Source of the DNA: Candidatus Dormiibacterota bacterium
GTDB taxonomy: Bacteria > Chloroflexota > Dormibacteria > Aeolococcales > Bog-877
Direction of reading: 5' to 3'
Assembly: GCA_013044295.1 (NCBI GenBank)
Contig: JABEUU010000129.1
Coordinates: 1-43,536, forward strand
Length of the DNA stretch: 43,536 bases
In this document: positions 21,822 to 28,523 of the stretch, one piece after another
Layout: each line of letters starts with the position of its first letter
Position numbering within the stretch: the stretch's first letter is position 1
The notes under the pieces: model-generated
What the model saw: the letters and a program-made list of their open reading frames with translations, nothing else
Told to the model about the DNA's origin: nothing
The model's database searches: none
Position numbers and translations under genes: made by a program

Positions 21822-22400
21822 ATGCGACGCAAGACTTTCGATGCGCTACTGACTTCGGTGGGTGCGATGCTGACCCTGACCTTGATCGTGGCAGGGGCGC
21901 TCATGATGTGGGGCGCGGTCTTCACTCAGAATCAGGTGCACAATCAGCTGGCCTCGCAAAAGGTCTTCTTCCCGGTCGCAGCCGCCTTCACTCACGCCAA
22001 GGCCGGCACCGAGATCACCCCGGGGATGAAGCCCTACCTGCTCCAGTACGCCGGCCAGGAGGTGCTCACCGGCGCCCAGGCGGAGGCCTACGCGGACCAC
22101 TTCATCGCGGTGCACCTGTCTGAGATGCCCTACCACGGCGTCTACTCCCTGGTGAGCTCGGCGGCCCGTGCGGCCCAGCCGGGGAGCTCCCAGGCCGCCC
22201 AGCTGTCAGCCCTTGAGGCCACCTCGTTCCAGGGCACCACGCTGCGGAGCATGCTGCTGGAGGCCTACGCCTTCGGGACCATTGGACAGATCGCTCTGAT
22301 CGCGTCCATCGTCGCCTTCGTACTCGCGGCGATCACCCTGATCCTCACCTTCATGGGGTACCTGCACCTGCGTCGCACGTCACCGGCTGTGATGATCTGA
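21822..22400 (+). CDS. Hypothetical membrane protein (two TM helices flanking an extracytoplasmic region)
   Basis: SD AAGGAGG upstream; TM helices at the N-terminus (LLTSVGAMLTLTLIVAGALMMWGAVF) and C-terminus (IALIASIVAFVLAAITLILTFMGYL). Confidence 0.75.
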   Translation: MRRKTFDALLTSVGAMLTLTLIVAGALMMWGAVFTQNQVHNQLASQKVFFPVAAAFTHAKAGTEITPGMKPYLLQYAGQEVLTGAQAEAYADHFIAVHLSEMPYHGVYSLVSSAARAAQPGSSQAAQLSALEATSFQGTTLRSMLLEAYAFGTIGQIALIASIVAFVLAAITLILTFMGYLHLRRTSPAVMI

Positions 22401-22437: not shown

Positions 22438-22467
22438 GAACCCCGCACCGAATTCGGTGCGGGGTTC
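22438..22467. terminator. Bidirectional hairpin terminator between convergent genes
   Basis: GAACCCCGCACCGAATTCGGTGCGGGGTTC: perfect 30-bp palindrome followed by cctgtttgt on the + strand. Confidence 0.8.
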
Positions 22468-22558: not shown

Positions 22559-22771
22559 TCAGGAGGACCGGCGTCCGCGCCAGGTGGAACTGAGCAAGAG
22601 GGCCACCACCGCCAAGGGCATCAGCACCACTGCCAGCGTCGACACCCTGACTGCGACGAGCCAGGCTGCGACCACGATCACGGCGACACCGGCTGCCACC
22701 TCGGGCGTGTCGCCGATGATGAAGTCCCACCAGAAGCGACCGAACGCCGCCCCAGCGCGCCAGACGCTCAA
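22559..22771 (-). CDS. Small hypothetical membrane protein
   Basis: MSVWRAGAAFGRFWWDFIIGDTPEVAAGVAVIVVAAWLVAVRVSTLAVVLMPLAVVALLLSSTWRGRRSS; TTG start overlaps the upstream gene's TGA. Confidence 0.7.
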   Translation of the reverse strand: MSVWRAGAAFGRFWWDFIIGDTPEVAAGVAVIVVAAWLVAVRVSTLAVVLMPLAVVALLLSSTWRGRRSS

Positions 22772-23520
22772 CTAGCCTCCGCGGCCTGAACCGTGGGGCG
22801 GGATCGGCCGAGACCTCGCACCAAGAGCCAGGCGACCCCTCCGTAGAGGGCCAGCAGGACCAGCAGGGCGAGGTCGGACCCCGGCCAACGGACGCCAGCG
22901 CCCTCGCCGCTCCAGAAGGTTCCGAAGGTCACCAACATCAGGCCAACTCCCAGCTTCATGGCGTTCTCGGGGACCTCGCTGAGCTGACGGGCCACCGCCA
23001 ACCCGATCCCGCCCACCGCGATCACGGCCGCCGCCGCCGCGATGGTGGCGATCTCGAGATGGCCCGAGCTCAAGCCCAAGGTGAGCACGATCATCACCAC
23101 CTCCATCCCCTCCAGGAACACCCCCTTGAAGCTGATCACGAAGCCAGTGGCGTCGCGCCCAGAACCGGTTCGCGGTTGGCTCGACAAGCGCTCGACCTCG
23201 CGGCGGTAGATGGCGTCCTCGTCATGCTTGGCCTTGTAGCCACTGGCCCTGAGGAGCGCCTTCCGCAGCCACTGCAAGCCCAGCACCAGAAGCAGGCTCC
23301 CCACCACCAGCCGCAACACGTTGAGCGGCACGTAGTGCACCAGAGCTGGTCCCAGGGCGGCCACCACGATGGCCAGGCACAACAGTGCTACAGCGCTGCC
23401 TTCCAGAGCCGAGCGCCACCCCCTGGTGAAGCCTGCCGCCATGACAATGGTGAGCGCCTCCACCGTCTCCACCACGCAGGCGCCGAACACCGACAGCGCA
23501 ATCAGGATGGTGGCCGCCAT
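22768..23520 (-). CDS. COG4280-like multi-TM membrane protein of unknown function
   Basis: MAATILIALSVFGACVVETVEALTIVMAAGFTRGWRSALEGSAVALL...ALLRASGYKAKHDEDAIYRREV...FVISFKGVFLEGMEVVMIVLTLG...RQLSEVPENAMKLGVGLMLVTFGTFWSGEGAGVRWPGSD. Confidence 0.82.
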   Translation of the reverse strand: MAATILIALSVFGACVVETVEALTIVMAAGFTRGWRSALEGSAVALLCLAIVVAALGPALVHYVPLNVLRLVVGSLLLVLGLQWLRKALLRASGYKAKHDEDAIYRREVERLSSQPRTGSGRDATGFVISFKGVFLEGMEVVMIVLTLGLSSGHLEIATIAAAAAVIAVGGIGLAVARQLSEVPENAMKLGVGLMLVTFGTFWSGEGAGVRWPGSDLALLVLLALYGGVAWLLVRGLGRSRPTVQAAEAS

Positions 23521-24304
23521 CAGGCGAGGTCCAACTCCTGCTCCAGCGCTGGCCCGGCCGGAAGCCGGTGCGCCAAGGGCCGCTGGGAGGCTCCGACTGG
23601 GCCGCTCGCAGGCGGATCCTGGGCCGAGTCGAACCCGAGCGGGAACGCCAGGCAACCCGCGGGGTCCACCGCGATCCCGACGTTGGCCCCCCGCTTGGCG
23701 GATCTAACTCCCACCAGACGCGCGCCACCAGCGGTCTCCACCACGTGGTCGTAGGCACCGGCGCGGAATGCGCTGTCCCTCACCATGCCGTAGAGGATGC
23801 CATCGGTCCGCTCTGAAGAGCAAATCGAAAGGGAGTCCGGACGCAGCAGCAGGGATACCTGAGTCCTGGGACTGGGACGCTCGACGGCCGTGGCCACCAC
23901 ATCCATGGAGCCGATCCGGACTCGGCACAGCCGGTCTCCCGCCAGGCCGACCACCGTCCTGGTGAGGTGCCCGGACAGCCCGGGGAACTGGGCCACAAGC
24001 GGATCTGCAGGGTGCCAACACACATCCTCCGGAGAGGCCACCTGGCAGATCCGACCGTCTCTGATGACCGCCCGTTGGTCGGCAAGCGCGAACGCCTCTT
24101 GTTGGTCATGGGTGATGTAGATGACCGTGACGCCGCTGTCCCGCGACAGGGTGGCGATCTCGACCCGGATCTGCTCGCGCAGATGAATGTCCAGGTTGCG
24201 GTCGCGCCACAGCCAGTCAGCGCCAACGCAAGTCCGCTCGTGGCCAACAAGAGCGGCCGCCAGCGCGCGCCCTCGGACACCTTAGCCAACAGAGTCACTC
24301 TCAT
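23520..24304 (-). pseudogene. Apparent fusion/deletion remnant: lipoprotein signal peptide joined out of frame to the C-terminal part of a PotA/UgpC/FbpC-type ABC ATPase
   Basis: 5' frame: SD GGAGTGAAGG, then MRVTLLAKVSEGARWRPLLLATSGLALALTGC (lipobox). Other frame: RNLDIHLREQIRVEIATLSRDSGVTVIYITHDQQEAFALADQRAVIRDGRICQVASPEDVCWHPADPLVAQFPGLSG...DSAFRAGAYDHVVETAGG (D-loop, H-loop, TOBE) with no Walker A or LSGGQ anywhere upstream. Confidence 0.75.
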
Positions 24305-24385
24305 CCTTCACTCCCGCAACCTACACGGCCCCGGGCACCGGCCCGAGGCGGACTCCGCCATGGTCGAGGACTCCCGACTAGGCGG

Positions 24386-24415
24386 GTTCTAAGGGAAAGC
24401 TATGGCGCGGTTAAG
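24386..24415 (-). promoter_or_regulatory. Candidate PHO box (copy 2)
   Basis: Minus strand CTTAACCG-CGC-CATAGCTT-TCC-CTTAGAAC: three 8-mers at 11-bp period; 20/21 identity of core with the copy upstream of pstB. Confidence 0.6.
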
Positions 24416-24478: not shown

Positions 24479-25327
24479 CTAGGTGGGCAACTGGGCGGCG
24501 TAGCGAACGGCCCGCCGGCCCACCAACCTGCCCACCCCGATCAGGACCAGGATCATCGCCAAGATGACCAGCCCGGCCGCCCCTGCCACCTCATGTTCAA
24601 GCTGCGTGGGCAAGGTGGCGTTGAGGTAGACCACGTAGGTCAAATAGCCGATGGGATGCTGGAAAAGGGTAAGCGTCGGGTTCTGGTCGGTGAACCCTAC
24701 CGTGTAGAGCAGAGGCGCGGTCTCGCCAACGGCGATCGCCAGAGCCACCACCAGTCCCGATGCGATCCCCGGGATGGCCGGGGGCAACAGGGCGCGCCGA
24801 AGGATGGTGACGCGGGGTAGCCCCAGGGCGATGGCCGCGTCGCGCAGGGTGGCTGGCACCTGCATAAGCGCGACCTCGGTGGTCTTGACGACGTAGGGGA
24901 GCACGATGGCGGAGAGTGCCAGGATCGCCGCCAGTAGTGAGAAGCCCCAGTGAAACTCCTGGTCCAGGACGATGTAGCCGACAAAGCCGATCACGATCGA
25001 GGGGACCCCGGCCAGGGTCTCGTAGCCGAGGCGAAGAATGCCCCCGCGAGTGGGACTGGCAAACTCCGCCAGGTAGATGCCGCCGGCGATCCCCACCGGC
25101 CCGGCCACCACCAGGATGCCCACCATCAGCAGGCCACTGCCCAGGATCGCGTTCTGGAGGCCGTTGCTGGCCGTGGTGGCCGTCAGCAGATGCGCGTTGA
25201 GAGCCGGGGCCGACTGCTGCAGCAGGCTGGCGATGATGGCCAGCGATGGCACGATGACGATGGCCAGAGCCAGCAGGCAAAGGCCCCAGAAGACCAGGTC
25301 GCGTCCCCGGCGCAGCGTCGAGCGCAC
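24479..25327 (-). CDS. pstA: Phosphate ABC transporter permease PstA
   Basis: VAGPVGIAGGIYLAEFA...LRLGYETLAGVPSIVIGFVGYIVL...VLPYVVKTTEVALMQVPATLRDAAIALGLPRVTILRRALLPPAIPGIASGLVVALAIAVGETAPLLYTVGF. Confidence 0.96.
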   Translation of the reverse strand: MRSTLRRGRDLVFWGLCLLALAIVIVPSLAIIASLLQQSAPALNAHLLTATTASNGLQNAILGSGLLMVGILVVAGPVGIAGGIYLAEFASPTRGGILRLGYETLAGVPSIVIGFVGYIVLDQEFHWGFSLLAAILALSAIVLPYVVKTTEVALMQVPATLRDAAIALGLPRVTILRRALLPPAIPGIASGLVVALAIAVGETAPLLYTVGFTDQNPTLTLFQHPIGYLTYVVYLNATLPTQLEHEVAGAAGLVILAMILVLIGVGRLVGRRAVRYAAQLPT

Positions 25328-25329
25328 GG

Positions 25330-26412
25330 TCAGATGCCTCGACCCACAGGCAGCACCGCCCCGCCGCTGACACGTCGGATCACCAGACGGCCGATCAGAT
25401 TGGTGGCGACGGTGATCACCAAAAGCACCACGCCAATCGCGGCCAGCGCGTGAATCGCCATCCCGGTGGCATCGGTGAGGGCGGAGTCCAGCATGGCCAC
25501 AATGGTTGCCGCCAAAGTCGAGAACGGCGAGTAGATGTTCACCGGGAAGCCGTTGAGCAGGTTGCCGCTGATCATCAGCACCGCCATGGTCTCTCCCAGC
25601 GCCCGCGCCCAGCCCAGGATGGCCGCCGCCAGAATGCCCCTTCGGACATAGGGGATGGTCACCACCTTGGCGGTCTCGTACTGGGTCATCCCGAGCGCCA
25701 GGGCCCCTTCCTTGGCCAGGATCGGCACCGTGCGGATGAGCTCACGGGTGGTGGCGGCGATGATCGGGATGATCATGACCGCCAGGATCAGAGACGCGGT
25801 CAGTAGTCCCTCACCACCGCCCACGCCCCCACGGAATATGGGGATCACCGAACCCAGCTCGGTGAGGATGGGAAAGACGTGCTTGGCCAGCAAGGGCCCG
25901 AACACCAAGATGCCCCAAAACCCATAGACAACACTGGGGATCCCCGCCAGCAACTCCAGGAAGATGGAGAGGCTGCTCTGCAGCCCGGCCGGCACCCGCT
26001 CGGTCAGGGCCAGGACCGCTCCGACCGCCGCCGGCACGGCGATCAGAAGCGCGATCAACGACGACGCCAGCGTCCCGAAGATGAATGGAAGGGCGCCATA
26101 GCTAGCCCCGTGGGGAGCCAGCACACCGTGGTGGACGGTTTCCTTGGTGATGTAGAGATTGCCGAAGGTGAAGATCTGACCGGTGAAGAAGTTGGTGCCG
26201 CTGTAGACGAACGCTGGGATCGCCTCCCGAATCATCTCCGCGGCCAGGAACAGCAGCATCAGGGTTGGCACCAGGGCCGCCGCCAAGAGCGCGCCGCGCA
26301 CCGCTCGGTCCCGACCGGTCAGGTCGGCATCGGCAAGCCGGCGGCGCGGGGGCACCACGGTGGGACCGGCGTCGCCGCCGGCCCCACGCGCGTTGCCAAG
26401 GAATCTCATCAA
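25330..26412 (-). CDS. pstC: Phosphate ABC transporter permease PstC
   Basis: LLAGIPSVVYGFWGILVFGPLL...IIPIIAATTRELIRTVPILAKEGALALGMTQYETAKVVTIPYVRRGILAAAILGWARALGETMAVLMISGN. Confidence 0.96.
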   Translation of the reverse strand: MMRFLGNARGAGGDAGPTVVPPRRRLADADLTGRDRAVRGALLAAALVPTLMLLFLAAEMIREAIPAFVYSGTNFFTGQIFTFGNLYITKETVHHGVLAPHGASYGALPFIFGTLASSLIALLIAVPAAVGAVLALTERVPAGLQSSLSIFLELLAGIPSVVYGFWGILVFGPLLAKHVFPILTELGSVIPIFRGGVGGGEGLLTASLILAVMIIPIIAATTRELIRTVPILAKEGALALGMTQYETAKVVTIPYVRRGILAAAILGWARALGETMAVLMISGNLLNGFPVNIYSPFSTLAATIVAMLDSALTDATGMAIHALAAIGVVLLVITVATNLIGRLVIRRVSGGAVLPVGRGI

Positions 26413-26434
26413 GGGGACAGCTGCTACCTGCTCT

Positions 26435-27592
26435 CTACCCCGTGATCTTGTTGATCGCGGCTTCCACCTTGGGGATCACGCTGGTCGGCAGGGCCACGAA
26501 GTTGACCGCCGAGAGGTTGCCGCCGGTGGCACCCCCGGTGGGGCTGATCGCCCAGTACAGGAACGTCCGAATCGCCTCCGCCGTGGTGGGGTTGGGCTGG
26601 GTCTTCTGGATCATCAGGTACTCGAAGTTGATGATCGGGTAGGAGTTGGCCCCCGAACTGTAGATCAGCGACTGGCGCAGGTTGGACGGTGTGCTGCCAG
26701 ATGAGGCATTGACCGCCGAGGTGATCGTGGCCAGGTCGGGGACCAGATAGTTGCCCGCCTGGTTCTGCAGCAGGGCCTCCTGCAGCCCCTGCTGGAGGGC
26801 TGTGTTCTCCACGCTGACTCCGATGTAGGCGACGCATCCGGGATTGGCCTTGCAAACCTGGATCATCCCGGGGTTGCCGTTGGCCGTGAGTTCGTTGGAC
26901 ACGGAGGGCCAGGTCACGGTGGTCCCGAAGGCCGGCCCGTTGGCCCAAGCCGAATTGGTCTTGGTCAGCAGGCTGGTGAAGATGAAGGTGTCGCCAGAGG
27001 AATCCACCCTCCGCACTGGCACAACCTTGACGGCTGGGAGCGTGACCCCGGGGTTGATGCTGGCCAGCTGAGGGTCGTTCCACTTCGTGATCTTGCCCTC
27101 ATACATTTGGGCCAGAATGTTGCCGGTGATCTTGAGGTTGGCGGGCATCCCGGGCACGTTGTAGTCAACCGCTTGGGCGGAGATTGCGATCGGGATGTTG
27201 AGCAAGCTGGGATTGGCGGTGGCCTGGGCCGGGGAGAGGTAAGCGTCCGAGCCCCCCATCTGCACCAGGTTGCCAACGGCCTCGCTGATCCCCAGTCCCG
27301 AGCCGCCCGGACCCGGAGCCAAGGTGATGTTGGAGTAGGCCGCGTGAACCTGAGGCGCCAGCACCTGCAGGTACGGATAGATCAGGGTCGATCCCGCCTC
27401 GTTGAGCGTGACCGCGGTGGACGGATTCCCCCTGGCCGCTGCCGCCGGCTGGCCGGAGCTGCTGCTCGGGGCCGGGCTCTTGGCGGGGTGGGTGGTGGTG
27501 GTTGTGCCGCAGGCGCTCAGGGCCAGCGCGCAGGCGCCGATCGCCAGTGGAATAACGCCGAATCGGGGGTTGCCGACGAATTTAGGGTGCAT
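26435..27592 (-). CDS. pstS: Phosphate ABC transporter substrate-binding lipoprotein PstS
   Basis: LALSACGTTTTT lipobox; TLNEAGSTLIYPYLQVLAPQV...PGPGGSGLGISEAVGNLVQMGGSDAYLSPAQ...KITKWNDPQLASINPGVTLPAVKVVPVRRVDSSGDTFIFTSLLTK. Confidence 0.96.
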   Translation of the reverse strand: MHPKFVGNPRFGVIPLAIGACALALSACGTTTTTHPAKSPAPSSSSGQPAAAARGNPSTAVTLNEAGSTLIYPYLQVLAPQVHAAYSNITLAPGPGGSGLGISEAVGNLVQMGGSDAYLSPAQATANPSLLNIPIAISAQAVDYNVPGMPANLKITGNILAQMYEGKITKWNDPQLASINPGVTLPAVKVVPVRRVDSSGDTFIFTSLLTKTNSAWANGPAFGTTVTWPSVSNELTANGNPGMIQVCKANPGCVAYIGVSVENTALQQGLQEALLQNQAGNYLVPDLATITSAVNASSGSTPSNLRQSLIYSSGANSYPIINFEYLMIQKTQPNPTTAEAIRTFLYWAISPTGGATGGNLSAVNFVALPTSVIPKVEAAINKITG

Positions 27593-27655
27593 TGAATCCT
27601 CCCATAGAAATTTGGTGAACCTCCATCGAACTGGTGCGGGGCGTCCCCCTGGCAG

Positions 27656-28462
27656 TTACGCTGTTCGTCCCTCAAGGTAGGCGCGGCTCCGCTCGTCCCC
27701 AGGGTGGTCGAAGAAGGCGCGAACCGGCGACTGCTCGATCGCCTCCCCGGCCATCATGAACAGGACCTCGTCGGCGCAGCGCGCCGCCTGCTGCAGGTTG
27801 TGGGTGACAAACACCACCGTCTTGCTGCCGCGGAAGCTGGCCACCAGCTCCTCGATCCGGCCGGTGCTGTGCGGGTCCAGCGAAGACGTCGGCTCGTCCA
27901 ACAGCAGCACTTCCGGCTCCACCGCCAACGCTCGCGCCATGCAGAGGAGCTGCTGTTGGCCTCCGGAGAGCATGAACGGCGTCCCTCCGAGGCGGTCGCG
28001 CACGGCCTCCCAGAGACCGACGTCACGGAGCAGGCCCTCGGTTCGCGCCTTCACCTCACCGCGCGCCCAGAGCCCGTGGATACGGGCCCCCAGGGAGACG
28101 TTCTCGGCGATGCTTTGGGGAAACGGGTTGGGCCGCTGAAACAGCATGCCCATGCGCCGGCGCAGGTCGCGCACGTCGGTGCCGCGAGCGTAGATGTTGC
28201 TCCCCTCCAGCAGGATGCTCCCATCGAGGTGAAATCCCGGCCGCTGGTCGTGGAGCCGGTTGAGCGCCCTCAGGAGGGTGGTCTTGCCGCAGCCGGTGGG
28301 TCCGATCAGGGCGGTGACCTTGCCTCTGGCGATTTGCGCCGAGATCCCCTTCAGGACCTGAGTGGACCCGAACCTGACGCTCAGGTCTTGGATGGCGACG
28401 GCGCCCTCGCCAACCGCCGCCGAAGCCACGTCGGGCGGTGTCCCCCGGCTCTCCATAAGCAT
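27656..28462 (-). CDS. pstB: Phosphate ABC transporter ATP-binding protein PstB
   Basis: LIGPTGCGKTTLLRALNRLHDQRPGFHLDGSILLEGSNIYARGTDVRDLRRRMGMLFQRPNPFPQSIAENV...LSGGQQQLLCMARALAVEPEVLLLDEPTSSLDP. Confidence 0.96.
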   Translation of the reverse strand: MLMESRGTPPDVASAAVGEGAVAIQDLSVRFGSTQVLKGISAQIARGKVTALIGPTGCGKTTLLRALNRLHDQRPGFHLDGSILLEGSNIYARGTDVRDLRRRMGMLFQRPNPFPQSIAENVSLGARIHGLWARGEVKARTEGLLRDVGLWEAVRDRLGGTPFMLSGGQQQLLCMARALAVEPEVLLLDEPTSSLDPHSTGRIEELVASFRGSKTVVFVTHNLQQAARCADEVLFMMAGEAIEQSPVRAFFDHPGDERSRAYLEGRTA

Positions 28463-28493
28463 GACGCCAGCATATGGAGGCTCTACTAAGACT

Positions 28494-28523
28494 CGGTTAT
28501 GTAAAAGCTATGGGGCGGTTAAG
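28494..28523 (-). promoter_or_regulatory. Candidate PHO box (copy 1) upstream of pstB
   Basis: Minus strand CTTAACCG-CCC-CATAGCTT-TTA-CATAACCG: three 8-mers separated by 3 bp, ending 32 bp before the pstB start. Confidence 0.7.

Follow-up and report, generated by a model that had tools for sequence, protein, structure and literature searches.

A deletion scar downstream of pst in a Candidatus Dormiibacterota genome: probable loss of an ABC importer by one deletion, with its PHO-box-like promoter region kept

We analyzed a window of 43,536 nt (contig G000:C81, one of 226 in a draft genome of 91% completeness) in which an operon for a binding protein (SBP), a permease and an ABC ATPase survives only as its two ends. 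Comparison with a congener in which the operon is intact makes it highly likely that one deletion of ~3.2 kb cut it to the present scar. The deletion scar is a case of ordinary gene loss, recording the loss of one nutrient importer in an uncultivated bacterial lineage. The promoter region of the lost importer was kept, and the genes that followed it are intact.

The scar and its intact counterpart

Read along the minus strand, the window has fabH and fabF, then a PHO-like array ahead of pstB, pstS, pstC and pstA, and after these another PHO-like array, an RBS and an ATG at 24304. The features of the locus are:

28484..28523, minus strand: PHO-box-like array of four 11-nt units upstream of pstB, CTTAACCGCCCCATAGCTTTTACATAACCGAGTCTTAG
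24479..28462, minus strand: pstB-pstS-pstC-pstA, high-affinity phosphate importer, intact and in the same order as in congener G003 (PBP_like_2 for PstS)
24387..24415, minus strand: another PHO-box-like array, here of three 11-nt units, marking the promoter region of the lost importer
24197..24304, minus strand: SBP gene remnant, start codon plus 36 codons (signal peptide, lipobox LTGC), from the reading frame and comparison with G003
24194..24200, minus strand: deletion junction, where ~3.2 kb present in G003 is missing (the rest of the SBP, the fused permease and the 5' part of the ATPase)
23520..24197, minus strand: ABC ATPase remnant, its final 225 codons, with D-loop, H-loop and TOBE, in an open frame
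22768..23520, minus strand: OFeT_1-like membrane protein, intact, its ATG overlapping the ATPase stop (TGATG); Pfam OFeT_1
22559..22771, minus strand: conserved membrane-like protein of 70 aa, encoded by the final gene of the conserved operon; no Pfam family

The SBP remnant starts at the ATG at 24304, preceded by GGGAGTGAAGG (minus strand), and encodes MRVTLLAKVSEGARWRPLLLATSGLALALTGC-GATA, with the lipobox cysteine as residue 32; the counterpart of this leader at the N-terminus of the G003 SBP is MNIRLGLRQPRRRLAAAAAVLVGTAVALTGCGAAATQ. At 24197 the reading shifts to another frame, starting NLDIHLREQIRVEIATLSRDSGVTVIYITHDQQEAF and running to a TGA at 23522-23520. The original prediction of a lipoprotein signal peptide ending in LTGC, followed in another frame by the C-terminus of an ABC ATPase, was thus correct, with both parts on the minus strand (24304-24197 and 24197-23520). 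The ATPase tail matched PotA/PhnT2/UgpC-type ATPase models starting at residue ~130-178, with E values as low as 7e-27, and includes a Pfam TOBE_2 domain. Neither Walker A nor the LSGGQ signature motif was found in the tail, as had been claimed, because its homology begins past both motifs: the G003 ATPase can be aligned with it only from residue 178. The signal-peptide frame reads through the junction as a 174-codon ORF (23780-24304), which has no Pfam domain.

At the same locus, G003 carries fabH-fabF-pstB-pstS-pstC-pstA-SBP-permease-ATPase-OFeT-70aa, and so has an intact ABC operon between pstA and the OFeT-like gene. Its SBP is a 353-aa lipoprotein, its fused permease has ~594 aa and its ATPase 406 aa. 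Measured against this operon, the window has kept both ends (36 SBP codons and 225 ATPase codons) and lost the middle; by gene coordinates, the missing span runs from about SBP codon 35/36 to about ATPase codon 177/178. The intact operon bears out the proposal that a single deletion passed through an SBP-permease-ATPase operon and spared the promoter. Microhomology at the junction is possible over at most 4 nt (AACC), as inferred from two relative sequences, and no flanking direct repeats able to mediate a deletion were found in the retained sequence there.

Six-frame searches of the window genome found no orthologue of the SBP, nor any SBP_bac_8 protein whatsoever, and none of the permease, for which the sole match (31%) adjoins an ABC ATPase. 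The importer of the window lineage is predicted to be dead, because its binding protein and permease are gone and what is left of its ATPase has neither Walker A nor the signature motif. The ancestral operon would have read PHO box - SBP - fused two-domain permease - ATPase - OFeT-like permease - 70-aa protein, from which one deletion, between SBP codon 36 and ATPase codon 178 in G003 numbering, would remove the ~3.2 kb.

Possible decay of the remnant and losses in relatives

We compared the evolution of the ATPase tail with that of its neighbors. Over the first 75 tail codons, 4 of 38 otherwise invariant columns are broken, versus 0-2 in the intact homologues, and the tail branch has a length of 0.44 in the window versus 0.15 in G003. 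Terminal branches of the flanking genes are near-equal in the window and G003 (PstA, 0.098/0.073; PstC, 0.106/0.110; PstS, 0.085/0.088; FabF, 0.076/0.089; FabH, 0.176/0.185). The OFeT-like branch, too, is a little longer in the window lineage than in G003 (0.153 versus 0.098). Tajima-type counts of unique changes in the first 75 codons were 11:0 with G007 as outgroup (p = 0.001) and 7:0 with outgroup sets (p = 0.016); for the whole tail they were marginal, at 19:9 (p = 0.09) and 19:8 (p = 0.05). The relative-rate p value ranged from 0.001 to 0.45 by segment and outgroup, other outgroups giving no significant result, and for this reason we take the data as suggestive, rather than proof, of relaxed constraint on the tail. 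In the tail pN is well below pS; therefore, most of its divergence is older than the loss of constraint. A neutral simulation left the 225-codon tail free of stops in 14-70% of cases for 55-10 replacements, so the lack of a stop in the tail is uninformative.

Importer loss was also seen in a second genus of the family. There the operon is intact in G007, G013 and G014; G010, G015 and G016 retain only pieces of the ATPase C-terminus before the OFeT-like gene, and G012 has a weak trace. A flanking gene upstream of OFeT lies at 4.4-4.5 kb in the intact G013, versus 0.6-1.9 kb in G010, G012, G015 and G016. The deletions in this genus seem to have taken the promoter region as well, since no PHO-like array was found upstream of the scars. 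The simplest account is that the importer was lost at least twice, as each of the two genera has members with the intact operon. A tree of the OFeT-like protein, computed without support values, pairs the intact G013 with the scarred G016, which would require further losses.

Other arrangements were met at related loci. A third state of the fabF locus, with neither pst nor importer, reads fabH-fabF-OFeT-70aa-Hyp (L074:4298-8606, on G002:C141); the same genome, G002, has an intact importer operon on a contig other than that of its fabF locus. At L120, the ATPase lies directly upstream of OFeT, with no recognizable SBP or permease within 7 kb.

These observations bear on other ways in which the scar could have arisen. 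In building this metagenome-assembled genome, the assembler might have fused the ends of an operon that is in reality intact, and both the draft state of the assembly, in 226 contigs, and an inferred junction microhomology of at most ~4 nt would favor such an error. However, no other contig of the assembly carries the missing SBP or permease, and a false join would not produce the long branch of the tail or changes at otherwise invariant residues. We consider misassembly unlikely, to the point of giving it very little weight, because the tail branch is long, four of the 38 invariant columns are broken, the pst and fab flanks evolve at near-equal rates and comparable scars occur in another genus. 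We give just as little weight to the idea that the deletion is real and present in only part of the strains of the sampled population, so that the importer persists in the species. Draft genomes represent the consensus of a population, and G001 (7% contamination) has two near-identical operon copies on two contigs, a sign that strains or species can be mixed in such drafts; the decay of the tail, however, suggests that the loss predates a strain polymorphism.

It is least probable, to a degree that nearly removes it from consideration, that the tail is a functional stand-alone TOBE/regulatory protein or a translated leader coupling translation to the OFeT-like gene: its 225 codons run without interruption and overlap the next gene in TGATG, but otherwise invariant residues have been lost, the scars of the other genus carry frameshifts or are shorter, so that tail length is not conserved, and the tail frame has no usual start codon ahead of the junction, the first being a GTG at 24041. 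A conserved ORF with the same short fusion, which the original prediction had named as refuting evidence, was seen in none of the relatives examined, which have either intact genes or shorter scars, and a functional fusion ORF was rejected on these grounds.

The retained promoter region and the genes behind it

Both arrays in the window repeat the unit [CG][TA]TA[AG]N every 11 nt (positions 24415/24404/24393 and 28523/28512/28501/28490), matching the architecture of Streptomyces PHO boxes, which are built from direct repeats of 11 nt (PMC7866108). In the window, the [CG][TA]TA[AG]N unit forms three triple chains, versus none in 200 dinucleotide shuffles, a figure that is somewhat optimistic because the unit was derived from these same sequences. 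A similar array lies upstream of the importer SBP in most of the related genomes examined (G001-G004, G006, G007 and G009), and the pattern was not found in Acidimicrobiia. Upstream of the SBP gene (4870) of L139, an Actinomycetes MAG, GGTTCACCGGTCTTTCACC resembles by eye a Streptomyces-type PHO box.

The lost importer was probably induced by phosphate starvation, and we infer that PhoP would regulate the locus. The claim that the promoter outlived the importer is upheld by the array at 24415-24387, and is refined by the intact OFeT-like and 70-aa genes downstream. The retained promoter is probably still of use, and more than a leftover, because the operon ran on to the intact OFeT-like permease and the 70-aa protein. 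What remains would be a phosphate-starvation promoter and a non-functional leader, 0.8 kb (formerly ~4 kb) upstream of the OFeT-like gene, whose start codon the former ATPase frame still reaches through TGATG. Judged from the sequence, the OFeT-like gene probably stays under Pho control and would continue to be expressed. In the simplest view, deletion of a dispensable importer would leave two membrane proteins as a phosphate-regulated unit.

The OFeT-like gene is intact and conserved, and the named genomes that best match it include Candidatus Dormiibacterota MAGs, which points to Dormibacterota as the lineage of the window. Its match to Pfam OFeT_1 is marginal (29.6 bits against a cut-off of 26.9), and an AlphaFold model (pLDDT 76) matched nothing in the PDB, the best E value being 0.46. 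We take the family to be COG4280, on which a literature search found no paper. Beyond the 70-aa gene, the window encodes a conserved 192-aa membrane-like protein with no Pfam family at 21822-22400 (plus strand), on the strand opposite to the OFeT-like gene; in G003 and G002 this gene is on the same strand, directly after the 70-aa gene. Between the convergent 70-aa and 192-aa genes, positions 22438-22467 form a perfect palindrome of 30 nt, with arms of 15 nt and no loop.

We surveyed 80 OFeT-like loci fetched from named genomes. An SBP-permease-ATPase set lies directly upstream of OFeT in 28 of the 80, from Dormibacterota and from Acidimicrobiia including Acidithrix ferrooxidans; many of the remaining loci, mostly Acidimicrobiaceae, have OFeT and the 70-aa gene alone. 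The five-gene operon SBP-fused permease-ATPase-OFeT-70aa was present in L062, L066, L067, L070, L119 (the cultured A. ferrooxidans) and others, and in Dormibacterota it is probably phosphate-regulated. A limited literature search met no published description of it. Ordinary as the scar is in itself, separate importer scars in at least two genera, each with the OFeT-like gene kept, point to a conserved and uncharacterized five-gene operon. Tentatively, the OFeT-like and 70-aa proteins may be the essential core of a so far undescribed transport module for phosphate starvation, shared by Dormibacterota and Acidimicrobiia, in which the ABC importer would be dispensable and repeatedly lost; here, the deletion would have put that core directly behind a PHO box.

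Substrate of the lost importer and the closest known systems

An organophosphate is the most likely substrate, because Pho-type arrays recur upstream of the importer. Of the organophosphate or phosphonate importer originally proposed, the first half is thus the better guess. The second half lost ground, phosphonate import being less likely than organophosphate import because no PhnJ was found in the family and PhnX scores stay below the cut-off. PhnJ (C-P lyase) was detected in 1 of 31 genomes, one outside the bacterial family of the importer, and PhnX (phosphonatase) was above cut-off in none of the 31 and likewise in none of the controls.

The 2-aminoethylphosphonate (2-AEP) importers PhnSTUV and PhnS2-U2-T2 provide the best NCBIfam models (TIGR03261/03262/03265, NF011620) for all three importer proteins of the intact relative, namely its SBP, fused permease and ATPase. 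The three proteins nevertheless scored far under the family cut-offs (59.7 versus 310, 96.6 versus 593 and 284.8 versus 458 bits), and thus did not reach the PhnS/PhnU2/PhnT2 equivalog level. In fold, the SBP best matched 4r6y, a putative 2-AEP-binding protein, followed by HitA, AfuA and P5PA.

The ugpBAEC glycerol-3-phosphate importer has an ATPase of the same MalK/UgpC class, and an operon of this type had been suggested as the ancestor. It was rejected because relatives carry one fused, double-length permease (594 aa in G003) in place of the separate UgpA and UgpE; the SBP is also closer to other families.

Similarity to HitA/FbpA and the OFeT neighbor raised ferric import as a candidate; among PDB sequences, the SBP profile matched HitA best (8e-20). 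In HitA, however, the tyrosine dyad lies in ALINNYYW, which aligns with ALIQSSAG of the SBP family (NYYW versus SSAG), so that the dyad is replaced by Ser-Ala; the histidine of NGQH is missing too. We lowered ferric import because of the missing dyad, which separates this SBP from those of FbpABC and HitABC.

AfuABC was itself once annotated as a ferric importer. The SBPs of AfuABC and P5PA, importers of sugar phosphates and pyridoxal phosphate, share the fold of the present SBP at ~17% identity. Its invariants STG, SGP and N219 lie at three helix starts, near which FbpA-type proteins also hold an anion, and resemble the residues reported to hold the phosphate in the Ser/Thr-Gly cradle of AfuA and P5PA (PMC8427247, PMC4546632). 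From these systems, the operon of the lost importer differs by its added OFeT-like gene.
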